From Polytrichum commune (taxonomy: Eukaryota; Streptophyta; Polytrichopsida; Polytrichales; Polytrichaceae), in NCBI GenBank assembly GCA_950295325.1, contig OX485805.1, forward strand, positions 31,483,501 through 31,547,500: a stretch of DNA of 64,000 nucleotides. The letters run 5' to 3'. Below, one piece after another: positions 2,339 to 63,367 of this stretch; positions within the stretch are counted from its first letter, which is position 1; the number at the start of each line of letters is the position of its first letter. Made by a program: the position numbers and the translations under genes. The notes under the pieces were generated by a model, which saw nothing but the letters and a program-made list of their open reading frames with translations, did no database searches and had not been told where the DNA came from.

Positions 2339-2575
2339 TTGTCCTGTGGGCATTGGATTGGAGGAGGATCGAACAGACACTTCATTCACGTCGGTCTCTT
2401 CGGAGACCGAAGTTTTTCTTCTTCTTCTCAGTTGATGATGAATTTCTCTGGGCAAGTAGCTCATCAGGATGCATCTATATTAATGAATAGTGCAGCATCA
2501 CATTGCTTTGTGAGTTATGTTTTCGCTAACACCTTTGGGTTAAAAATGAAAAAAACAGTAACACATTGGTATTAG
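2339..2575 (+). pseudogene. retropepsin-like fragment of a Gypsy element
   Basis: A short open stretch includes ILMNSAASHCFVS followed by a phenylalanine/leucine-rich segment. This resembles the DSG(A)SH.F(I/V)S active-site surroundings of Ty3/Gypsy aspartic proteases, with Asp replaced by Asn. It runs directly into a tRNA-iMet primer-binding-site-like sequence at 2567. That is not a natural order for one element, so this is probably a separate broken piece. Confidence 0.35.
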
Positions 2576-3238
2576 AGCTCTTGAACCTTGTTCATATTTT
2601 GGTGTTGCTATTATTCCGCTGTGCATTTTGTTATGTTGAGATTTGGGGAAATGGGGAGTAGAATTTGGATAATGGTGTAATTTTATTTTTCTGTATTCTG
2701 AGCCGTGTACGCATACGTGCATACACGCAACGCGACAGGCGACAGCTGCGAGCTCGCAAAAAAATCCCGTTGATCTCCACTCATATTATTGACTGTGTGA
2801 TTTGCACACACGAATGCGCGAGGTACTGATCGCATGTGGTCCGCATCACGAGGAAACGAGAGATCAAACGCTTCAGTCAAACGCGTAGAAACAACTAACG
2901 TCAAGAAACCGGCACTGCCGGTCACCAACATGTGATTACCGGTTCGGCCGGTCATCCGGGGTGAAAAACTTTTGTTGCGCGATTTGAGTACCGGGTCAGC
3001 CGGTCATTAGCTAAAATTTTATTTTCATTCATAGTTGAAGCAATTTCTATAATTTTGAGAAATTTTTCTGGTATTTTATTTCCAGTCTTTTTCAAAATCT
3101 GAACGTTTTATTTGGGTTTTGGATGTTTGTTTGGTCCAATGGCCACTTTCATGGACACATCTAGTCCATCAGATGAGGGTAGCCCTCCTGTAGTTCCTCC
3201 CGTGGTCACATCTCCCACATCCGTAGATACGGATGAAG
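2566..3238 (+). mobile_element. inverted duplicate of a Gypsy 5' internal region (PBS, leader, start of gag)
   Basis: Starting with TGGTATTAGAGC at 2567-2578, a one-mismatch match to the tRNA-iMet primer site, this segment is a diverged reverse complement of about 3656-4266. It keeps the leader and a gag start at 3139 (MATFMDTSSPSDEG...). The frame then runs into the end of the opposite-strand gag at about 3239, where orientation switches. No LTR precedes it. It differs from the other arm by scattered substitutions and small indels, so the duplication is not recent. Confidence 0.75.
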
Positions 3239-3755
3239 CTATGGGTCATCTTTCTTATCTGTTCGGAGCTCCATTGCCAATACGTCCCAATGTTGTGCGA
3301 CATTGGTCTCCAAATATGTAGACGCAATGACCACCCATTCCACACCGGGCACCTGATGTGTTGTCAAATACTTATGCATTTGAGCCAGCCATGCTAGAAT
3401 AATGACCTTAGACTTATCTTTGAATTTCTCTGGTTTAGCAGACACAGTGGTGGACCGGACCTTGTTTGTGTCTTGGTATGCTTGTAAGACAATCAACTTA
3501 CATTCATACGTATCCAAACGCTCGTCATGTTTAGCATACATAGACATTAATTGGTCACACTGTGTCTCTATCCGTTGAAACTGATCATGGTCATCAATGA
3601 GTTTCCCTTCACAATATTCCCAAATCTTTCTGGCTACCAGATGATCCATGGATAGTTTCATCTGTATCTACGGATGTGGGAAATGTGACCACGGGAGGAA
3701 CTACAGGAGGGCTACCCTCAGTTGATGGACCAGATGTGTCCATGTCAGTGGCCAT
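3239..3755 (-). pseudogene. Gypsy gag fragment, frameshifted
   Basis: The ATG at 3755 opens MATDMDTSGPSTEG..., parallel to the plus-strand copy at 3139. After about 32 codons the frame shifts by one base (near 3660) into a 140-codon frame ending at 3239. The latter contains KPEKFKDKSK, then a WLAQMHKYL helix and AQHWDVLAMEL, which fits the Retrotrans_gag core (P..F ... W...M..Y ... A..W). It is truncated by the inverted junction. Confidence 0.65.
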
Positions 3756-4253
3756 TGGACCAAACAAACACCCAAAACCCAAATAAAACGTTCAAATTTT
3801 GAAAAAAACCGGAAATAAAATACTAGAAAAAATTCTCAAAATTATAGAAATTGCTTCAATTACGAATGAAAATAAAATTTTAGTTGATGACCGGCTGACC
3901 CGGTATTCAAGTTGCGCTACAAAAGTTTTTCACCCACGGGTGACCGGTCGTGCCGGTCTACTGACATTAGCCGTTTCTGCGCGTTCGATCTATCGTTTCC
4001 TCGTGATGCGGACCACATGCGATCAGTACCTCGGCATTCGTGTGTGCAAATCATACAATCGATAATCTGAGTGGAGATCAATGGGATTTTTCTGCGAGCT
4101 CGTGGCCATAATACAAAATGTGTACGCGGCTCATAATACAAAAAATAAAAATTACACCATTCCCCAAATTTTGCTCCCCATTTCCCCAAATCTCAACACA
4201 ACAAAATGCACAACGGAATAATAGCAACACCCAAAAATGAACAAGGTTCAAGA

Positions 4254-4265
4254 GCTCTGATACCA
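4254..4265 (-). other. primer-binding site complementary to tRNA-iMet
   Basis: The minus strand reads TGGTATCAGAGC, the classical plant LTR-element primer site matching the 3' end of initiator methionine tRNA. It sits one base inside the LTR end. Confidence 0.85.
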
Positions 4266-4266
4266 A

Positions 4267-4617
4267 TGTAACATATCTCACAATAATGAGATTCAAGAGG
4301 CATGTTCCACCCAACCTTAGAGCTTATATACTAGATACTACTATGAGTTGAGGCTCCCTTCAACTAGTAGTTCCAGATATCTTAACTAGCTCTCCCTCCA
4401 TGCCTTTAAGATAACTCTAAGTACAATTAACTCATGGTCGTTACTTACGAGGTGATAACCTAGGGTAAGATCATAGTTTCAGCTAGTAGTGATTCCCTTT
4501 ACCTTTAAAATTGCTAGAGCACTTAGGGTGGCACCTCTAGTCTTCTAGTAAAGGAGTTTAGTTGAACTAGAGGTTGTAAATAGTAAATAAATAATAAATA
4601 AGTAAATACACGTTACA
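4267..4617 (-). repeat. long terminal repeat, 351 bp
   Basis: The minus-strand sequence starts TGTAACGTGT at 4617 and ends ATGTTACA at 4267, one base before the primer-binding site. The boundary rests on the perfect TGTAAC/GTTACA ends and on that spacing. No partner LTR is visible in the window. Confidence 0.75.
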
Positions 4618-33639: not shown

Positions 33640-34135
33640 TTAGAGATGGCTTTGGTCTGGATGCAAATCTCGTCTGTTTCAACTGTGTGTGGCTAGGGGT
33701 TGGATTGGGCATTGCAATTCCCCTTTGTAGCTTACCGGCGATTTGTGTTAGTTGCGTGGGGGTAGGGTTTGGCTTTGGCCTTCCATTTTTTCTTTGCAAG
33801 TTACCTTGGGTTGGTGATCTGTTGATGTTGCATGCGGCTAGAGTTTGGCTTCGGCAGTGCAATTCTCCTTTGCAACTTACCTTTGCATAGCAAACTGACG
33901 ATTTGTGTTAATTGTGTGGGGGTAGGGTTTGGCTTGGGCCTTCCATTTTTTTCTTTGCAGCTTGCCTTGGGTTCATAATTTGCTGATGTTGCGTGCGGCC
34001 AGGCTTTGGCTTGGGCCTTCCATTTATTTTTTTGTAACTTACCTTGGACCAATGATTTATTATTGCTGCGTGTGGCTAGAGTTTGGCTTGGGCCTTGCAT
34101 TTCTTCTTTGCAACTTATCTTTGCTCTACTTCGGT
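33640..34135. repeat. degenerate tandem repeat around TTTGGCTTGGGCCTTCCATTT
   Basis: Four to six diverged units of roughly 70-130 bp, each with GGCT(A/T)G(A/G)GTTTGGCTT, a T-rich tract with TTTGCAACTTACC, and GATGTTGC. Frames open through it on both strands only reflect the repeat. Confidence 0.6.
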
Positions 34136-43593: not shown

Positions 43594-43787
43594 GGACACA
43601 CCACACATGATTGTCAGTGAAGGGTTGCAATGGGAACGTTAAGCGCCCCAGTGCTATTTTGAGGCAAAACTACGGAGATTGGGTTTGCTCCGCCCTATCA
43701 CCACCCAAAAAAACACCGAGCACGTTTATGTGTAATCACCGGGAAGGGCGTCCCCTGGACTTACGTCCGCCACTTGTATGTCCATGG
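43594..43787 (+). repeat. left terminal inverted repeat
   Basis: Matches the reverse complement of 48303-48494 with scattered substitutions and two small indels. Shared blocks include GGGTTGCAATGGGAACGTTA, CCTATCACCACCC and CACCGGGAAGGGCGTCCCCT. Confidence 0.85.
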
Positions 43788-46700
43788 ACTGCCTGTTGCG
43801 CACTAGACTCCCGTACGTCCACCCCAGCCATGTTGTGTCCACGCTCTGCTGTTGAACAACGTTGAAGATTATCCTTTGCAAATCCAACTTGATCTGGGGG
43901 AATAGTAACCTTTAAGGGCTCAACATCTTCATGTTCCGGCAGAGGCCAAGCAGCCAAAATGCAATCGATTGGTTGCCAGTCTGGAATGGAGTATTTCAAA
44001 TCACGTTTCCACTTGAATTTGGGGTTCGAATCCTAGCCATTCCATTTCTTTGATAGGTCTCTGGCGGTTGAGGTGGGAGTAAACCATTGTACAAGAATTT
44101 GACGTGGATGCTCTCCCGTGACTGCCAAGTTGGGCCCAGACAAAGCACGGCAAACCCATATGGATCTACCAATATCTTGTTCTTGGGGACGCAATATTAG
44201 CATATGCCCCTCGTGCACATTATCCGCGATGCGGAAAGCAGCTGCAGGACGAAGGTTTGCTGGACCAACATAATGGTCATCCGGTTGGTGCTCTTCCCGG
44301 AGCTCTCCATTGTCGTTGAACGGATGTGCTTCTGCTGCGACTCTGCTCCGTGGCCAGAACCCCTCACATAATGGCTGCCCAGTAGTGTATACGTTTGTGA
44401 GAGGTGTTTCCAATGCCTTTTTCACCCCTATCCAATATTGCAAAATATGCATGTGTGAACCCATATATGTTCCTGTCGTGTCATGGTCACATATTGACTG
44501 CCAATAGTCAATGAACCCTTGCAGTCTCACAAGAACCTCCTCCAGTTTGGCCATACTTCGCGGTGGGGCAGGAAATGGGTCCCCGGATGGAAGACATGGC
44601 TCTCCTTTTATATTGGATTTCCACATCTTTATACCATCCTTGGGCAACCACTCCTCGTGCGTGCTAAGCACTTTGTATTGCATAACAGGCCAACCATCAT
44701 CTCGAACATAGAATTTGAACTGTTGGGCCTTCACGTGCCCAATGACTTTCTCCTTACCACTTGGGATATGCTCACTAACATATGTTCTCCAATCTGGCAG
44801 TTCCTCTATCATATGCGGAATCACAGGAACCTTTTCCATATCCATGTACGATTTCATGAGGAGTGGGATAGTGGGGTAGTCGTGTTGACGCAGGTCCATA
44901 CTCCATCTTCCAAATGATGCATCGATGTCGTCATGGGTGTGGCCAACCAAAAGATATGACACATGCACCTCTGTGAATATACCTTTTGCCGTGAGCATAG
45001 ACCAGAAAGCCTTTACAAACCTACACTTGTTGTCCTTCCAGCAATTATCAAGCTGAACATGCAGAATGGGTGGAAGAGGAACTGCCTGGACAGGCTCCAG
45101 GGGTGGGGGTCGTAGGCCTTGCAAACAAATATCGCTCCCATGAAGAACAGCCCGATAAAGAGGTGACCGCCCATTACCATGAAAAAGTCGACGAGATGAT
45201 GACTTTGGGGGTTCCTCCAAATCACGGAGAAGTCTCGCGAATGAACCTACAGTATGGTTGCAATCTCCAGGGTACATGTCCAATGCATAGTGGGCATATC
45301 TCATGTCCATGAGCCATCATGCCTGTTACAGAAAGTGGTAGCTTGGTGAACATATCGGTATCTTTGTTCTTGGAAGCAAAGCAAGGAGATGCAGTTTTGC
45401 CATGGTCCATTTTGTCGTGAATAATCGTCAACACCTTTCGGGGGTGCTCAATTGAGAGAGCCCTCATGCAACGGTATGCATTGCGAGCAGATTCTTGCTG
45501 CGCTTGGTGCTTCTCCAATTGTTTTGAAAAACCTGTGTGGGCAGCTGAACCTTTCACATGTTGAAGAATAATGGCAGCAAGCGAATCACACTTCCCACAA
45601 CGAGCAAAATTGTCACCAACCCTCTTCTTTATGTAGTGCTTAAAGTAGGAATTCCTGATTTTGCTCAAAGTTGAAAGAGAGATTGGGAGAACACCGCATT
45701 TGTCATTCACCTACACATATACGATAAGCAAAACATTAACAAGACTTCACCTCAACAACAATCCAAGATGTCTATGATTGCCCATTGAAGTATATTGAAC
45801 ACCCAAACACTCATTGAAGTAAGACGTGTGTGACTGGCACATACAAAGCGGCTACCATGTTTACAACGTATGCTTACCTCGTTGATTGTAACCAGAAATT
45901 TCTTCCATTTTGTTCCACGAGGCAACACCATTTCAACAACACGTGTACCATTTGGCAGTGTGCGGGCCTTGTGAGGCATCATATCTGCTTTGTCTTGCAA
46001 TAACGTCGAAAGTGTGGCAGTAGCTTGTTGGGTGGATATTCGATTCCTTTTCATGTTAAGGTTCCCATGATCTCGTGGACGCATACCGCACTTGAATTCT
46101 GACCGGTTTCTATAGAATGTCGTTTTAGAGATAGCAAATATGTGTCTCCATGCTTTCTCACATACATCGCGACCGCTCAACGTCACAACATTCCTAGAGC
46201 CTCCCGGCAGTTTATGTAACTGGCCATGAACCTCTAATTGCTTGGCATGTCTCATCCTTGATGAACAAGTATAAAACTCGGTTCGCAACGCAAGCGCCTC
46301 ATCGCGGGGAAAAAACCTGGTGCACTCACGTTCACAACACAGAAATGTTGATAGTTGAAAGATGCTGGTATTGGTAAGTACTTGCGATTTCTTGGTTGGT
46401 CTCTGATGCGGGGTTGTCCGGGATGAGACATATGCCCTCCTCCCTTCTTTTCTACGTCTCTCCAGTAATTTCATTTACGCACGTAACCTCTGTGTGCTCA
46501 CGAGAAGGTGGTGCGCAAGAGTATACCTCTGGTAGAAAACACAAGTAATTGGCCACATTCTCAATGAGAACATCGATCCCATGTCCATCATTCCCTCGAT
46601 TGGTTCCATGACAAGGACTCCGACGTAATCTAATCCAAGACACTTGTCATCAACACAATCAGATGGGTTGACATTACGGCAAATTCCCTTGGCAACATTC

Positions 46701-46976
46701 AGTCCATCTGCATTCACAAGCATCACTGGGATATTCACCCATTCTTCCCTTGTCAGCCCTCTGCATTCCACATCAATATCCTGAAGGGTGTAATCCGCGT
46801 CTTCATCCGTGAAGATTGCTTCAGATAGGGACAACCCCTGCAATGTATACAGTTCAACAATGTCAAAACATGTCCAAAGTGAGACTGGATATCACTTATT
46901 CTGATGAGCATAAACTCAATGTATGGAAGAACCGAAATACCTCTGAACTCGCTGTATCTCGATCCAATTGCTCCAT
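43736..46976 (-). pseudogene. broken transposase-like gene of the DUF7869 type
   Basis: Start ATG at 46976. Exon 1 46976-46941 joins in phase to 46837 onward (SEAIFTDEDADYTLQDID). A frame disruption falls between about 46600 and 46474. The exon ending at 45878 carries a cysteine-rich start (CCERECTRFFPRDEALALR) and a VCEKAWRHIFAISKTTFYR helix. The exon from 45710 has FARCGKCDSLA, then SIEHPRKVLTIIHDKMDHGK. After a one-base frameshift near 45300 comes the best signature: VQLDNCWKDNK ... VSYLLVGHTHDDIDASFGRW, an acidic D...D pattern of the DUF7869 family. A TAG at 44033-44035 is followed by 99 more in-frame codons to 43736. Not functional as it stands. The role in transposition is inferred from the terminal repeats. 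Confidence 0.7.
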
Positions 46977-47039
46977 TACAGAACCTACACAACATATATA
47001 TATTTAGCAAGCACATACATTATCCTCAAGAGAAACGAG

Positions 47040-47112
47040 AGCCAACTTTAGAGCCAACGAGAGCCTCTAAGGGAGGATCCCCTCGATCGAGTGGAACCTC
47101 CCTTAGAGGGGA
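47040..47112. repeat. isolated palindromic-repeat unit
   Basis: Contains CTCGATCGAG at 47092-47101 within GGATCCCCTCGATCGAGTGG, followed by CTTAGAGGGGATCCCC, the same unit as at 48.07-48.19 kb but about 1 kb away. Confidence 0.8.
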
Positions 47113-48060
47113 TCCCCCCCCAAGTGTCGCGCACCTCTCCATGAGGAGTGCCCGAAACACCATGGGCACAAGGGGACCCCGGAGTGACACCCGGGACTTG
47201 TGGCGCCGTTGGTGAGAGGGCCCAAGTGATCCTAGTGTGGGTGAGGGCCCCGGGCGTTGGGAACGCCTCCCACCCACGAAGACTAGGAGGCACAAGGGTA
47301 AGGCCATGAGCTATGCGTAGCTCATGGCGTGGTGATTCTAGAAAGCTCAAGAACACCTCAATCGGAGGTGTGAGCTAGGAGTTATGGCCATTTGAGTGGG
47401 GCGCTGTCCCGGGACAGCGCCCTGGTACAGCAGTGCCTGGGAGTGATTCCCGGGACTGCCAAGGTTCAAACAGGCATAACTTCCTCAAGACTTGCTCAAA
47501 TGGGGCAAGTGAGGAGTCCATCGGCATCTACGTGAAGCGTAGATGAGGATGGAGTGGTTGGTTGTTATGATCAGACATCATACAAGGAAGTTATGATGGT
47601 CTGAAGCTGCTGGGGGGTTCTAGGCCCAGCAGCTAAAGGAAAATGTCCACTTGGCCCCAACTCTTGGTAGAGAGACAAGAGGTTGGTTGATGGTGAGGTA
47701 GGGGCCCCGCGTGAAGTCCTAGAGGCTTATATGGGTGAGGTGGTGTGGCCTCACCCACCCGAGGCCGAACGGCAAGGCCTCCATGGGCTTTGGCCTATTG
47801 TGAGGCCATAGTTGCCTAGTATGCTTCGGGTTGTTGTAGTGTTGCTCCGGCAACGCGATGATCAACATAGGATTGGGGAAATGGGTTACAGATTGAGGGA
47901 TGAGTCCCGAAAGCAAAGTAGGAGGGTTGGTTCCCTCCTATGAACTATTGGTCCAGGGTAAGAGGAGCTATCCATTAGCATGGCGGAATGCGAAGGGTTA
48001 GCGCTCGTAACCTTTGCTAGAAACGAAAATTGGCAAGATTATTAAGGGACCTAGCAAGGG
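47113..48060. other. non-coding interior of the 4.9-kb element
   Basis: Moderately GC-rich, with short inverted motifs (for example GCGCTGTCCC/GGGACAGCGC near 47400). Open frames on both strands are short and show no family features. Confidence 0.45.
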
Positions 48061-48070
48061 TTGCGACACC

Positions 48071-48302
48071 AAGGGAGGAGGATCCCCTTGATCGAGTGGA
48101 ACCTCCTCCCTTAGAGGGGATCCCCCCAAGTGAGGAGGATCCCCTCGATCGAGTGGAACCTCCTCCCTTAGAGGGGATCCCCCCCAAGTGAGGAGGATCC
48201 CCTCTACGGCGAAGATCCACTCGATCGAGTGGATCTTCGCCTTGAGGGGTTCCACTAGGTCGAGTGGATCCTCGCCTAGAGTGGATCCTCGATCGAGTGG
48301 AT
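48071..48302. repeat. palindrome array A: 57-58 bp units plus a 34-bp perfect palindrome
   Basis: Units starting GAGGAGGATCCCC recur at about 48075, 48132 and 48190, each with (C)TCGATCGAGTGGAACCTCC and CTTAGAGGGGATCCCC. They end at a 34-bp perfect palindrome, 48208-48241, centred on CTCGATCGAG and bounded by GGCGAAGATCC and its complement. A further core is at 48289. Confidence 0.85.
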
Positions 48303-48494
48303 CCATGGACATACGGTTGGCGCACGTAAGTCCAGGGGACGCCCTTCCCGGTGATTACACAAACGTGCTCGGTGTTTTTTTGGGTGGTGATAGGGCGGAG
48401 AAAACCCAATCTCCGTAGTTTTGGTTCAAACTCGCACTGGGGCACTTAACGTTCCCATTGCAACCCTTCACTGACAATCATGTGTGGTGTGTCC
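48303..48494 (-). repeat. right terminal inverted repeat
   Basis: Reverse-complement partner of 43594-43787. Both its edges run into CCATGGATCC-type sequence that belongs to the palindromic array, so the array surrounds this arm. Confidence 0.85.
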
Positions 48495-55917: not shown

Positions 55918-56372
55918 GGGATCCACTCGATTGAGTGGATCCCACCTTAGTCAGCCAGCAGGCCAAGGGCTGCTGGCTGCCTCGCATGGGATCCACTCGA
56001 TCGAGTGGATCCCAGCGTAGCCAGCCAGAAGGCCAAGGGGTGCTGGCTACCTCGCAAGGGATCCACTCGATCGAGTGGATCCCAGCGTAGCCAACCAGCA
56101 GGCCAGCAGGCTGCCTCCCCAGGGATCCACTCGATCGAGTGGATCCCTGGGGAGGCAGCCAGCACCCCTTGGCCTTCTGAGTGGATCCCAGGCGAGGCAG
56201 CCAGCAGCCCTTGGCCTGCTGAGTGGATCCAGAGTGGAGAGCCTCACCACTCTGGCTGCACCCAAGGCTTGGGTTTCTAGCCGCGATCCACTCGTTTGAG
56301 TGGATACTGTGGAGGCCTCCCCACTCCGGCCACGCCCAATCCATGGGTTGCTCCAGGATCCACTCGATCGAG
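55918..56372. repeat. palindrome array C: 70-bp tandem units that invert at a 52-bp perfect palindrome
   Basis: GGGATCCACTCGAT(C/T)GAG units start at 55918, 55988, 56058 and 56122; each is followed by AGCCAGCAGGCCAAGG-like sequence. 56109-56160 is a perfect 52-bp palindrome. After it the units run in the opposite orientation (GGCAGCCAGCACCCCTTGGC, then GAGTGGATCC) to about 56230. Further cores or variants are at 56291 (CTCGTTTGAG) and 56363. Together these make a cruciform-capable block just upstream of the ParB/methyltransferase-like gene. Confidence 0.9.
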
Positions 56373-56494
56373 TGGAACCCAGAGTGGATGTGCCAATTTA
56401 GCAATACACAAATAAATGTAGCAATGACTTTGTGTACTGATGTATCAAAATACTGGATGGAGGCCCTTATCCTTTGAATGTTTGTGCAGGCGAA

Positions 56495-59400
56495 ATGGAC
56501 AAAGATGTGTTGTGGACAGACCTTGTGGGAAACTTGAAGGAAGGACCCAAAGGACCTTATTGGGAATTGAGGGACACGCACCTAAAACATTGGTCCCTAC
56601 AAATAATTAGAAAAGATAGAGCATCACCTTTTCTATTAACGTTTGTCTACCGCGTGGATAAGAGTTGGATCCCAAACCCCGGTAATCCTATTCAATTAGC
56701 GTCCGTGGGTGCCCGCGACACACTTAATGTGGCCGTCCTCGAAGGACTAGAAGAGCGTGTGGTATCCATTGACTGCAAGAAGCACAGATTTCATTTGGAG
56801 CCCTTCTTAGAATCGGTCTCGTCACTCCCTTCCCAGGACAAAGAAGAAATACAGAGGGTCATGGTATCGGGAGTTTCAAAGAAAGCTATAAACTTCATAC
56901 TGGAGACGTTGGGAGAGATTAATGCAAGAGAGGCAACGGAGAGGGAGGAATCGCGGAGACAGATGAAGCAGCAAGCTGAGACTATTTTGAAAACAAGGCA
57001 ACATGGAGGGACTAGCAAGCAGAGGACACCTAGGGCACCAAAAGGTTCACAGAAATCAACCGACATCGATCGCGCGTATGAGGCGAAGAAATCTAAAATG
57101 GTGCCCGCCGAGATTGTGTCCTTGTCAGCTCCCGTTGAACAAATCACAAATCCCCCTAGGAGACAACCAGCTCCAAAAAGGGCACTATCGCCCGAGAAGG
57201 AGATCAAGAAGCAGAAATCGAAGACAACCGAAGCACCAGAAGAAACTCCCTTGGTGCTCACTCAAGCAGAGAAAGGAAGGGTAATCACGCATGGTGAAGA
57301 ACCCAGTCTAGAGGAAGCTGCAGCGGATCGGAAGAAATTTCGTCAGCTGTTTGGACACCTTTACCCATTCGGCGTCGAAGCGGTCTTCCACGTGAACATT
57401 AAGAAAATGAAGAGTGCCAAGTCATATCAGGTAAAGCTTTATGGGCTAAAAAATGAATTTAATGTGGAAGTCGACCAAGATTTAATTCTCAACCGTGCAT
57501 GTGGCATTGTCTTCACAGGTCACTCGTCCGCTTGATGACGCTGGGGTTGCTCTAATGAAGAATTACCTGATTCAAACTCCTCCAGCGTGGCCTCACCACA
57601 ATTTGTGCCTAATGCCGAAGTTGAGGAAGGGTGAGACGTGGAGAGACGGTATGACGTGGGATGACATTAAGGATGGGCAGTTTGTCATCATCAATGGACA
57701 ACACAGTGTGGCGGCCTCGAGGCAGATCATCGGCCACAAAGACATAGAGCCCTCCCTAAGAGAGAAACTGAAGGTCTGGCCATGCACAATCGTCTGGACC
57801 GAAGACCCCAGCATGACTGTTCGATTATCATACACGTTGAACAACTCGAACTCGTTCAACAAATTCACTCCTACTTGGACAACTCAGATTATGTATTGCC
57901 GTAGGGTGTGGGTGAAGTTGGGAAGGCCTCAGAAACAACGAGTTAATGCTGCAGCGTCCGACCCAAATGTGAGACAGGCCTGGAAGGTACATACACATTG
58001 TGCTTCATAATTCTTTGCTTTGTTTGCACTAGCACCAATGCCAGGTTCCACTCGATCGAGTGGAACCTGGAAGATGGTGACCCAGTTTAACATGTCTATC
58101 CAGTTCGTGATGAAGATCAATGATCTGACTCCAATTCTGATTTGTTGCAGAACTTTACAACAAGTATGGAAGCCTCTTTCACAGCCATTGCTAGGGGCAT
58201 TACTCATGCCGATTTGAACGCCGAACTTACCCTCATCATGGCCCCAGATCAAACGTCAAAGCTATGGAAGAAAATATTCATCGCTCACGAGCAGGGCACA
58301 CTGTTGAATCCAGATAATCCTGACAGGACATATTTGGACGATTACTGTGAGGCTCAACAGAAGCTGCGAGCCCGCCACGAGAAGAAGAAATCGCCTTCAG
58401 CGTTTGAGGAGAAGCCTTATGTCTGCAAACCGTTAACTCGGGAGACATTCAAGGGCATGGGCGGCCTTACAAGGGAGGATTTCTTGCTTTGTGCCAAGCG
58501 AATTCTGGAGGTTAGGGATGGCGAAGAGGTCCCTAGGGTGACAATCAGAACCATAAAGAACCCTAAAGTATCCACCCTGAAGTCTTGGTGCAACTTTCGC
58601 AAGTGGAAGAACATACTGCTCCAAGAATTGTCTACGCGTGATCCCAACGAGCTTGGCATATGGGGAAAGGATCCTGAAGGGTTTGATTGCGTTAACCGTG
58701 AAGTCTAGAATACTTTCAAGAAAGACCATGGAATCACGAAGGCGAAGTGGGTGAAGCTGTACCAGGTTGCTGGCGATGCTTGGCTCAACAAAAAACGTTC
58801 GCCAAATAATAAGTTCCTCGAGGCACCCCCTGCGTGTGACCGCTTGCTACGCGAGTGGCTTCAGACTGACATCCAAGAGTGTCATTCCCAAGTGATTACG
58901 CGTTGGGTGAATTACAACTCAATCAAGAAGCAGTTGGTGATCCCTACCCAAGACAGGGTTGACGTGGAGTGGCTATCAAAGAGCAACATATCCGCGGGTT
59001 TCATTGACTTCAGATTCATTCCAGGTTGTGTGGACCAACCAGTGTCTTCCTCAGTCGTTGAATCCTTGGTAAAGTGCATTTCAGACCCCTTATGGTACCC
59101 AGGAGTGAAGACGGTTCCCGCGTGGATGATTGTGAGCGACGTCCGCAATCACTCTGCCGCCCAAGAATTCGTTTGCACTCTAATGCGGAGGCATCCGGAG
59201 ACGTTTTTGAACGTCCCATCTTTTTATTTCCCATGTCCAGCCGAGGATCTTCCCCCTTACAAAGAAGTCAAAAGCAAGAGAACATCCCCGGCACTATATG
59301 TGGACTTTCTGACATGCACAAGAATCTTTCCACGACACAAGGTCTTCCCGTGTCCAATGTTGGCTCCTCAAGCTCGACGCTATGAGGTTAACCCTAAACA

Positions 59401-60983
59401 ATGGTCAGAGTTAACTTACGAAGTGAGCCGTGGGGAGCTGCGTATGGAAACTTACCTAACATTTCTGAGTCACATGGGATGCTCTGGAGGAGTGGTCATA
59501 AATTTCTTTGGAGGCTTGAAGCCTATTGCTGCCTCACTGGTGAGTTATCACCAACACGTTTTTTTTGGGTTCGTTGCTTTGATTTTTATTTTGTCATGTG
59601 TTTACTCACATTTACATGCGTGCAGATGACCGATTTTAATGTCTTCTCCTACATGGATTCGACATTCATGCACATATTGGAGGACAGGATAGCTCACATT
59701 CGTCCACTTCGGGCAGTCGACTTCGCCGAAGATGACTCGAGAGGATTTCCAGTGGAACGTGATCAACAATTTCATCCTAATCAAAAAGCGTCCCCCCTTA
59801 AGTTGATGGTATGTCGTGCGCTATTTCTGGACCCCGCTATTTCTTTTCGTCCGTGTCGTTTGTACCTCAACGGTTCCCACATCCTGTTGGTTGTTGCTAT
59901 GTTGATTCAACCCAGGATGTTCCTCGAGATCCCCCGTCAGTGGGCATCGAAAACATGGATATAGACACCCCGCTCTCGGATGCGGCTGAGGATTATGAGG
60001 AGGCTGCAGATGATGATGATGACGAACAAGAGGCGCCAAGTGAGCAGGACACTGATGAGGCAGAGTTGGATGTGCAATCGGAGGGAGGTGACTCCGGACA
60101 CACTCAGGCCACGCCACGAGATTATGGCGGGTCCCCATTGCGAGCCAAGGCCCTCGACTTCGGCACCGTAAGCGAGGACTCGAGACGCCATGTCACCCCC
60201 CTCGCTGAACAACCGGGCGACGATCGCGACGAGGATGAACACGATGAGGACTCACATGACGAAGAGGATTGAGACGATGATGAGCAGGAGAGGGAGGAGA
60301 GTCCTGAAAACAATCGGACTGAACAAGAGAGGGATGACGAGTTCGATAAAGTTCTAAGTGAGGCGTACCACGAGAGAGATCAAGAAGGCGATGTCCAGGT
60401 CGATGAAGACCCCCAGAAATCCGAGGGAAGCTCCCCATCCGTGCCCTCTGAGGGTAGTGAGGACGATCTTCCACCGCCCATTCCGCCGCGAAGCAAGCGC
60501 TCGGCCAGTAGATCCTCCCCCAAGGAACGCCAGTCGAGACGCCAGAGGACCAAGGTGGATGAGCCAGTCATCACAGAGTCGTTCCTGGAGGACAAGATTG
60601 TGGGCATTTTGAGTAAAACTTTGCCCAACATGCTCACAGGTCTGCTACAGGAAGCAATGGGGCAAGTCAGAATTCAGCCGTCCCTACAAGCACCTGCACT
60701 GGCACCAGCAGTGGACGTCGCCGTTGGGCCTTCACAACCCAACATGACTATCAAGCACGTGGATCCTTCAACGCACGAGGTGGGCGTGCAATCCATGGAT
60801 GTGGACAAGGTGGACGAAGCTACCGACATGGATGCGCTGCCTCTTGCCAACAAATTCAACGTAAGTTTCTATTCCCCTTGTGATTTCATGATTTCTTTGC
60901 CTCTACATGTGACTGAATCTCCACCTGGATGTTTGATCCAGGTCGGAGATGGCGCCAAGTTATTGAAGCCTCGTGTCGACTAG
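56495..60983 (+). pseudogene. ParB-like plus degenerate DNA-methyltransferase-like protein, six exons, two in-frame stops
   Basis: Exons by splice signals and phase: 56495-57430, 57519-57986, 58151-59539, 59626-59808, 59916-60860, 60942-60983; 1320 codons. The acceptor at 56488-56489 shows a 5' untranslated intron. Residues 1-310 are of unknown type with a Lys-rich end. About 303-400 shows RPLDDAG, then FVIINGQHSVAAS (residues 366-378), like the ParB/sulfiredoxin DGQHR motif with Arg replaced by Ser. DPLW (780-783) could be a motif IV (DPPW/Y). FFGGLKPIAASL (920-931) and the following Asp and Arg match the SAM-binding motif of beta-class N4C/N6A methyltransferases, degenerate at G-x-G. The rest is acidic and disordered. 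TAG at 58706-58708 and TGA at 60270-60272 interrupt it. Function is unproven; the fold assignments are inference. Confidence 0.6.
58041..58070. repeat. 30-bp perfect palindrome inside intron 2 of the ParB/methyltransferase-like gene
   Basis: Core CTCGATCGAG at 58051-58060 with arms CCAGGTTCCA and its complement. It belongs to the family of arrays A-C but has GGTTCC/GGAACC instead of GGATCC arms. It stands alone in the intron. Confidence 0.95.
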
Positions 60984-61081
60984 GACGCCCCTACCCGCCA
61001 TGACTAGTTTGTTTAGTGTGTCCGATAATGTAGAAGGCCTTCCCAATTGGAAGGAGAGGCAACATGTGTACAATTTTTATA

Positions 61082-61087
61082 AATAAA
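61082..61087 (+). terminator. possible poly(A) signal after the first module
   Basis: AATAAA lies about 100 bp downstream of the TAG at 60981-60983. It fits an alternative end of the transcript after the short last exon. Confidence 0.4.
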
Positions 61088-61155
61088 GTGAATTATTTTG
61101 GGTTACAGCTATTATTTCTTTGACACCTCTTGAATGATGCAATTGCAAATTACAG

Positions 61156-63367
61156 GCGTCCTTGCCAGTCTCAGCACAGTTGGACCCGCTGCTTGCAGCT
61201 TTATCGCCGCCACGAACTTTTCCTGCCATCGATGAGGGGCCAAACGATTCGTTGACCTTTGGTCATATAGAAACTCGCCCTCCACGATCACCCGTAGACA
61301 CATCCGACCCTGCCCCGTCACTTTGTCCAGCCGTCATAATACTGGACACTCCACCTCCGTCTCCAATTCCATTTGTGACGGCCGATCCTCTTATTGGGAT
61401 TACTCGGGCGGCCACCATGGCGTCAGGGAAGGCAGCTTTAACAAAAGGGAGTCAATCGGATATCCAGGCTTCGACAATTGTTGTCGAGGGCTCCGGTGAA
61501 GGAAGATGCCAGTTGGAGGAGCATCCATCGACGAGTGTCTTCGAGGAGACCACTCAGGGAGAGCCGCAATTGGATGCGTAGCGAACGACAAGTGTCATCG
61601 GGGAATCTGATGGAGGAGAGCGCCAGTTAGACGCGGCCCCATCGACAACTGTCATCGAGGAATCTGAACTGGGAGAGCCGCAGTTGGAGGTGCCTCCATC
61701 GACGACTGTCATCGAGGAATCTGAACTGGGAGAGCCACAGTTGGATTTGCCTCTATCAACGACTATCATCGAGGATACCGAAATGGGAGAGCCTCAGTTG
61801 GAGGCGCAGCCATCGACGAGTGGAGGGGCACTTGTGGTTTATAAAGGGAGTCAGTCTGAACTCTTGGCATCTTCAAGTGTCGTGGATATCATCCCAGCAG
61901 ATTGTACTACTCCAGAGGCCGCCAAAAATGTGCCGGGATCAGTGAAGAGGTATTTGCAACGGTGGCCTCGCGGTACCAACAGGGGGGACCCCCGGTTTGA
62001 CTACACCACTCTCCATGAGTCGAGCGAGTTGACATTGGCCACCCACAACAATGACGAGGATGCCAAACGGCGCGCTGATCTTCTCCAAGCGGTGCCCACG
62101 CATGTGCATGTAAGTCTGACACCACAACCTATTTGTCATTGTGCGCACTAGTCCTGATTTGCCTGCCCATTTCAACGCTTTTACCGTCAATGTCCATTTA
62201 TCAACGCGTAGTTTTGGGTTCAGGGTCCAGAACTATCCATAACGCCACAGGATGCGCCTATACCAAAACACATTGTATATGATAAGCTCTTTGTTTACGA
62301 TGACACCTACCCAAAGATCAATAGGCCTCTCCGAGTATTCACAAGGGAGATGGGAATCGCGTGTGCTAAAAGACTCATGTCTAAGAATCACGAAGATCCG
62401 TCCTTAGGTTACTCTGATCGATGGGAATTCAATCCCGTAATGTACGAGGTATTGGTCTGGTCCCCTATCCCATTTATCGAAATCACCAACATATTCAATA
62501 TAACTAAGCCATGCCTAGGTTTGTAGGGTCAAACTTTGTTTAGTCCATTGTAGGAAGTTTAAGAAGCTCACTATGGATTCATGTCGCCAGGCGCCTGCTG
62601 CTATACCCGATCGAAGGTTCATTGTGGTGTTCGATTTAAACGGCATTTTTTGCCACTGTATCCACCGTGGACGGAATATGGTAGCCGTCCCTACTTGGAT
62701 AATGCAGGATCGACCGCTGGACAAAAAACCTGCGTTCGTAGGCCCCAAGGTTGTCCTCCCTAGAAGCGGATACAAAATGTTTTGGGAGAAGATGTCCACA
62801 ATGTTCTATCTTTGCATATGGTCCTCCATGAAAAAACAGACTGTTGACCTTGTGGTGGAGTATCTTTTTGCTGGGATGCCTAAACCGTTAATAGTGCTTG
62901 CACAAGAGGATTGCACCTCCTTCAAGGACATTTGGGGCAACATCGTGATGAACCCCTTGAAGCCACAATCGCCATTGTTTTTGAAAAGTTTGGTCTCCAA
63001 GTTTTGGTGGCCACCTATATCCCTGGCTAATGGGAGGATTACAGCGACTTCTTCAAACACCATCCTCGTAGATGACTGCCCTTACAAGTCTGCTTGTAAT
63101 CCGGACGAGTGTGGTTTGTTTCCCGAGCCCTTCATGAACAATCGAGTCCATGACGCAGACATGACAAAGGTTCTCCTCCCCTACTTCCAAAGCATGTTCT
63201 ACTCACCAATGACTGACGCACGAGAATTTGTGGTGAGCCGTAGATTTGGGCAACAGCCTATCAGGCATAACGACGCAGTGAAGATGGCAATTCTGAAATC
63301 CAAGGAGTTCAATGGACCAGAATTGAACCCTTCCCAAGTCAAGTTTAGGTCAGTATTAGATGAATAA
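61156..63367 (+). pseudogene. repeat-bearing module with an FCP1/NIF-type HAD phosphatase-like domain
   Basis: Exons: 61156-62109 (acceptor TTACAG, no ATG), 62224-62448, 62558-63367; all phases agree. Its first exon is in phase with the donor at 60860, so it may be spliced onto the preceding module, skipping 60942-60983. Exon 1 is Pro/Ser-rich, has 19-residue repeats and a TAG at 61579-61581. Exon 3 encodes VVFDLNGIF (motif I of FCP1-type HAD enzymes, DxDx(T/V) with the second Asp as Asn), MFYLCIWSS (motif II) and ILVDDCP (motif III), in the right order. The Asn is seen in some plant FCP1-like relatives, from memory, and may weaken catalysis. The ATG at 62573 could also start a separate 264-aa protein with no stop. 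Confidence 0.6.
61525..61827 (+). repeat. 57-bp coding minisatellite (19-residue repeat)
   Basis: Units begin CCATCGACGA or variants at 61525, 61582, 61639, 61696, 61753 and 61810. Three of the encoded copies follow PSTTVIEESELGEPQLE closely. The period is a multiple of three, so frame is kept except for the TAG at 61579. Confidence 0.9.

Follow-up and report, generated by a model that had tools for sequence, protein, structure and literature searches.

What is a gene that joins a ParB-like module, a DNA methyltransferase-like module and an FCP1-like phosphatase module doing in the nuclear DNA of a moss? The question is raised by a locus at positions 56495–63367, on the plus strand, of a 64,000-nucleotide stretch of the Polytrichum commune genome (GenBank assembly GCA_950295325.1, contig OX485805.1, forward-strand positions 31,483,501 to 31,547,500; hereafter the window, numbered from its first letter). 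The copy in the window is decayed and belongs to a eukaryotic gene family with introns. The combination of ParB and methyltransferase domains in the nucleus is a known kind of layout, because there is a precedent in an algal transposon (PMC12477816, in the parts drawn on here); what this family adds to it is altered methyltransferase motifs, a linked NIF domain, measured constraint and palindromes in the non-coding DNA around the gene.

Gene model and state of the window copy

The locus was rebuilt as eight exons, with GT/AG boundaries at every intron and a length divisible by three in every exon (phase 0), in agreement with the compatible splice phase that an earlier note, made from the letters alone, had supposed.

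56495..57430, plus strand: exon 1, N-terminal region of 312 amino acids, stopping just short of the best-conserved ParB part
57431..57518: intron 1, GT/AG
57519..57986, plus strand: exon 2, predicted ParB/sulfiredoxin-fold core with IINGQHSVAAS, assigned from fold and family searches
57987..58150: intron 2, containing one palindrome (58039..58072)
58151..59539, plus strand: exon 3, helical region followed by a predicted beta-class methyltransferase fold, with DFRF at the motif IV place and FFGGLKP at the motif I place
59626..59808, plus strand: exon 4, segment beyond motif I (NVFSYMDS...)
59916..60860, plus strand: exon 5, acidic linker
61156..62109, plus strand: exon 6, 19-amino-acid (57-bp) repeats, its junction with exon 5 modelled only
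62224..62448, plus strand: exon 7, model
62558..63367, plus strand: exon 8, NIF/FCP1-like HAD domain (FDLNG, IWSS, VDDCP), assigned from Pfam PF03031 and 32% identity to the NIF open reading frame (ORF) of locus L002

Because three in-frame stops interrupt this copy (58706 in exon 3, 60270 in exon 5 and 61579 in exon 6), it is damaged and not a working gene. Exons 1 and 2 are read unbroken as YQ/VTRPLD (the slash marking the junction) in 10 of 114 collected proteins (P0004–P0011, P0018 and P0027), and exons 3 and 4 as AA[SA]L/M, likewise in 10 of 114; the junctions 57430/57519 and 59539/59626 of the earlier note are therefore supported. The donor and acceptor sides of intron 2 were seen separately in relatives, among which no spliced read spanning exons 2 and 3 was seen. 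For the third junction of that note, the modelled 60860/61156, an alternative acceptor (exon 6 start at 60942) would terminate the protein at the stop at 60981–60983. Intron 1 is present in the window and absent from the ten proteins named above and from the loci L001 and L002 described below; P0012–P0014 probably also carry it, judged from their upstream ends. This presence and absence may represent intron gain or loss inside the family. The repeats of exon 6 form a 57-bp tandem array (61510–61819, 5.4 copies) whose 19-amino-acid units are of the type EPQLEVPPSTTVIEESELG.

Relatives and selection

The candidates among which relatives were sought had been preselected on their length and the words they shared. 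Six proteins came from an initial search. At E ≤ 10, a profile built on the ParB part matched 53 proteins, one at 0.43 and the other 52 at no worse than 2.5e-5, and a profile built on exon 3 matched 57, none worse than 1.2e-29, of which three had been found before. These matches go beyond chance. Their protein names were uninformative. P0060 matches exon 3 without a stop, at 97.6% identity over 458 amino acids. Identities of 29–38% occur among relatives of the ParB part whose contigs reach 0.88 Mb, and P0057 is 49% identical over a short part and lies on a contig of 0.97 Mb. Scans of viral_contigs proteins gave no relative, tblastn of phages with parts of L002 gave a best E of 0.6 and otherwise nothing, and BFVD gave weak matches only (best E 0.022), which include a Pandoravirus methyltransferase and a phage ParB entry.

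Among bacterial and archaeal genomes, a scan picked out the two loci L001 and L002, both in one metagenome-assembled genome (MAG) labelled Synechococcales (AVDCRST_MAG81). The ORFs of L002 (82–1560, 1596–3098, 3166–4389 and 5170–6024) repeat the modules and module order of the window, NIF included, on a single strand, and its ParB part is 36% identical to P0006. Both loci carry GT..AG introns at the positions of introns 2 and 3 and are therefore taken as eukaryotic DNA that was misbinned; they are probably eukaryotic contamination of the MAG bin. Between L001 and L002 the ratio of nonsynonymous to synonymous substitution rates (dN/dS; Nei-Gojobori, computed with the author's script over segments picked by the author, with dS of 0.73–1.13) was lowest in the ParB core (0.040), followed by the methyltransferase-like part as far as motif I (0.095) and the helical part (0.117), and highest in exon 4 with the linker (0.248) and in the N-terminal part (0.254). 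The comparison of sequences indicates that the protein is functional in the L001/L002 lineage, with the ParB core as its most constrained part.

The three modules

The product of exon 2 is predicted to adopt the ParB/sulfiredoxin fold, and its IINGQH columns are invariant across the 25 rows of an alignment of the ParB part (A4). GQHS, DPLW and FFGGLKP lie at residues 372, 780 and 920 of the spliced product, as the earlier note had placed them. The active-site motif of ParB and sulfiredoxin proteins is GxxR, with a conserved arginine. This arginine is absent from the 35 sequences of the family caught by a motif search, which have GQHS in 29, GQHT in 4, and GQHI and GQPT in one each. Two phage fusions (L020 and L021) likewise lack the conserved arginine. 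No helix-turn-helix was identified in the ParB-like module. For the ParB part, no Pfam, PHROG or NCBIfam match stood above a cut-off among the matches listed (PHROGs has no cut-off; best E 0.039), and PDB sequences gave one weak, irrelevant match (E 0.22).

Exon 3 is predicted to hold a beta-class amino-methyltransferase fold with motif IV before motif I. All 50 structure-match rows listed by VIA are beta-class N6/N4 amino-methyltransferases, with MTA1 and METTL3 among the closest folds, and the motif I half of the predicted structure has a low predicted local distance difference test score (pLDDT). Fold prediction, which the earlier note had proposed as a check, thus returned ParB/sulfiredoxin and beta-class methyltransferase folds, not unrelated ones. 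DPLW, which that note had pointed out, was rejected as motif IV; the candidate motif IV is D-F-R at a strand end, which would correspond to D209 of MTA1 as judged from the VIA ranges and a PDB title.

In alignment A6, made of 8 chosen rows, D-F-R and E-L-x-M do not vary, nor do the G and K of motif I. The residue after D-F-R is F in the window and N in L001 and L002, and motif I reads FGGLKP in 38 of the 114 collected proteins and YAGSK in L001 and L002. The canonical motifs of beta-class amino-methyltransferases are the catalytic [DNS]PP[YFW] and the S-adenosylmethionine motif FxGxG; among the aligned relatives, none showed DPPY/W or FxGxG. For PF01555 no match was above the Pfam cut-off, and only L002 was listed (E 0.033, 14.6 bits against a cut-off of 26.7); MT-A70 was not listed at E ≤ 10 for P0001–P0006 and seven ORFs of L001 and L002. 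Among the matches listed for the methyltransferase part, none from Pfam, PHROG or NCBIfam was above cut-off, and exon 3 had no match among PDB sequences.

The third module is matched by Pfam NIF (PF03031) in the window at 62519–63367 (E 7.9e-10, 39.1 bits, cut-off 21.8) and in L002 (53.8 bits against 21.8). The score for TIGR02251 was far under its cut-off, and the NIF part had no match among PDB sequences. The window and L002 domains align over 223 columns with 32% identity (E 5e-24) and have FDLNGI, IWSSMK and VDD in common. The nucleophile motif of NIF/FCP1-like HAD phosphatases is DxDx(T/V), and at this site both copies have DLNG. In L002 the NIF ORF begins 0.8 kb past the linker ORF on the same strand, while the sequence of L001 stops before the expected NIF position. 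The order and strand of the NIF linkage agree in the window and L002, the two loci in which it could be seen; a single polypeptide is putative. The observation of the earlier note is confirmed and its interpretation partly upheld: its module order of ParB-like, methyltransferase-like, acidic linker and NIF/FCP1-like on one strand agrees with the folds, the Pfam NIF matches and L002. Of its degenerate motifs, GQHS and FGGLK recur in relatives and DLNG in L002.

Palindromes around the gene

The non-coding parts of the locus carry palindromes, which are shared with one further place in the window.

55918..56379: palindrome cluster GGATCCACTCGATCGAGTGGATCC with six core sites (up to 2 mismatches each), ahead of exon 1 by 116–577 bp
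58039..58072: intron 2 palindrome around CCAGGTTCCACTCGATCGAGTGGAACCTGG
43594–48494: DUF7869 element of 4.9 kb with inverted arms of about 195 bp (43594–43788 and 48302–48494, 93.8% alike), palindromes inside it and just outside the right arm
44036–45316, minus strand: DUF7869 ORF, domain E 1.5e-35

The exact sequence CACTCGATCGAGTG occurs 11 times in the 64-kb window, against a mean of 0.00 in 100 shuffles. Core sites with at most 2 mismatches number 17, 7 of them at 55.9–58.1 kb and 10 at 47.1–48.7 kb, with none elsewhere in the window. Palindromes of the form TTCAGCTCGA[C/G]TCGAGCTGAA were found in L001 and L002 (8 and 7 sites, respectively, with at most 3 mismatches), none of the 15 within coding sequence, and none appeared in 200 plain shuffles of each locus. 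The sites of L001 lie in the 5' flank (3), intron 2 (1), intron 3 (1) and 3' of the linker (3), and those of L002 in intron 2 (2), intron 3 (3) and the spacer before NIF (2). A CTCGA/TCGAG core is common to the palindromes of the window and of L001 and L002. Where a 5' flank is available (window and L001), palindromes stand upstream of the start, and the window, L001 and L002 each have at least one in intron 2. Their arms vary between copies yet remain symmetric.

Scans of viral_contigs for the palindromes gave no match, and palindromes deduced from the intron read-through peptides of relatives were overall no better than those from shuffled peptides. Read-through peptides such as GSTRSSGF of P0004 are suggestive only. 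The intron 2 read-through peptides LPVDRLEV, TSSRPTGS and NFQSTDWKF of P0007 might stem from further palindromes centred on TCG..CGA, though they did no better than shuffles in a codon test.

Tblastn of the family proteins on the window matched only at 56–62 kb, and the 25 best stretches common to the 47–48.7 kb place and the ParB locus are the palindromes. The DUF7869 ORF lies on the opposite strand about 10 kb from the ParB locus, with the same palindromes, and was given no weight.

Other features of the window

At the window start a long open frame (412–1311) has an RNase H domain (PF00075, E 1e-15), and an open frame next to it (1315–2145) has no Pfam match; this may be a retroelement tail. 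Also in the left part of the window is an inverted repeat (2563–3242 and 3652–4269, about 680 columns, 82% alike), and a 77-bp tandem repeat lies at 33924–34121 (2.6 copies).

Comparison with known systems

The closest precedent is a 1104-amino-acid accessory protein with ParB-like and N4/N6-methyltransferase domains, encoded by the Sola1-1_Ec32 transposon of the brown alga Ectocarpus, with green and red algal counterparts cited; the parts of that paper used here suggest that such proteins bind and modify their own element, and predict N4C or N6A methylation for the Ectocarpus protein (PMC12477816). The moss locus resembles them in its predicted ParB-like and DNA methyltransferase folds, which lie in order, on one strand and with phase-0 junctions and would make up one eukaryotic protein, a likeness drawn by description only; it differs in its altered methyltransferase motifs and linked NIF. 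No Sola1 transposase or element ends were found in the window. Phage fusions of ParB and adenine methylase (for example Wolbachia phage WO QHJ75445.1, P0114) also place a ParB-fold module N-terminal to a beta-class methyltransferase; hhalign sets IINGQHS opposite IIxGHxR and aligns ME...FGGLK to the stretch running to FxGSG, although the similarity is not significant, and the moss gene has DPPY and FxGxG replaced, a helical insert, introns, a linker and NIF. It differs from MTA1 and METTL3-METTL14 (MT-A70) in having no DPPW and in its linkage to ParB and NIF, from ParB/Noc/KorB and sulfiredoxin in having GQHS for the usual arginine motif, and from NIF/FCP1-like HAD phosphatases (PF03031; TIGR02251) in its DLNG, in the window and L002 alike, despite Pfam NIF scores above cut-off. 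The ParB domain of the Bacillus cereus ParB-methylase Bce_0392 has non-specific nicking activity according to the parts of PMC5512222 used here, and by analogy nicking is another possible activity of the ParB-like module. The open-licence literature searched yielded no account of a linked NIF domain or of palindromes like these.

What the locus may be

We tentatively favour the reading of the locus as a divergent, NIF-bearing accessory gene of the ParB-methyltransferase kind known from algal transposons, with altered motifs IV and I. It draws on the folds, the order and linkage of modules in two divergent loci, the purifying selection and the palindromes in non-coding parts. The gene would belong to a mobile element, and its ParB core would read a dyad, the palindromes around its own gene being the candidate target. 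The methyltransferase-like fold may serve as a second DNA-reading module or a non-standard modifier, and the DLNG-type NIF domain as a docking or weak phosphatase arm linked to the transcription machinery; together the modules would serve to mark copies of the element itself and to tune how these are transcribed or protect them from silencing. A bolder version, which we consider unlikely, has a mobile element operate a nuclear equivalent of ParB/parS: a ParB-fold protein reads palindromes around its own multicopy genes, and the repurposed methyltransferase fold and FCP1-like domain act there on RNA polymerase II, whereby the element would mark and protect itself without ordinary methylation.

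What weighs against a role as targets is that the palindromes also occur at the DUF7869 element, with the 47–48.7 kb cluster inside and beside it. They could then be independent short hairpin repeats that settle in non-coding DNA and are not read by the protein of the same gene family; arms that differ between copies and stay symmetric are what hairpin-borne repeats would show. This is not very likely, though far from negligible, since only two places in 64 kb carry them, one of them the ParB gene, and since the upstream and intron 2 positions are found again, around a similar core, in a distant lineage. It appears improbable that the protein is an active DNA- or RNA-modifying enzyme that works with the non-canonical motifs DFRF and FGGLKP and is brought to its target by the ParB-like module. 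Conservation of D-F-R and G-G-L-K-P, the dN/dS of 0.095 and the closeness to MTA1 and METTL3 folds speak for it, but neither canonical motif was seen in the aligned relatives, L001 and L002 have N after DFR and YAGSK as motif I, and METTL14 and MTA9 are inactive relatives. The methylation predicted for the algal protein (PMC12477816) is a further point for it. Equally improbable is a multicopy nuclear family unconnected with any mobile element, which would regulate host chromatin or transcription and repeatedly lose copies. It would suit the strong purifying selection, the lack of a relative in the viral_contigs proteins and the lack of terminal repeats at the locus (in a search of 40–64 kb for repeats of at least 30 nt, in which the only inverted repeats were the DUF7869 arms and palindrome-related pairs); it sits poorly with two diverged loci in one MAG, the decay of the window copy and the ParB-methyltransferase proteins carried by algal transposons (PMC12477816).

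The NIF domain, the altered motifs under strong selection and the candidate palindromic targets make the binding and modification of the own element, as suggested in the parts of PMC12477816 used here, directly testable.
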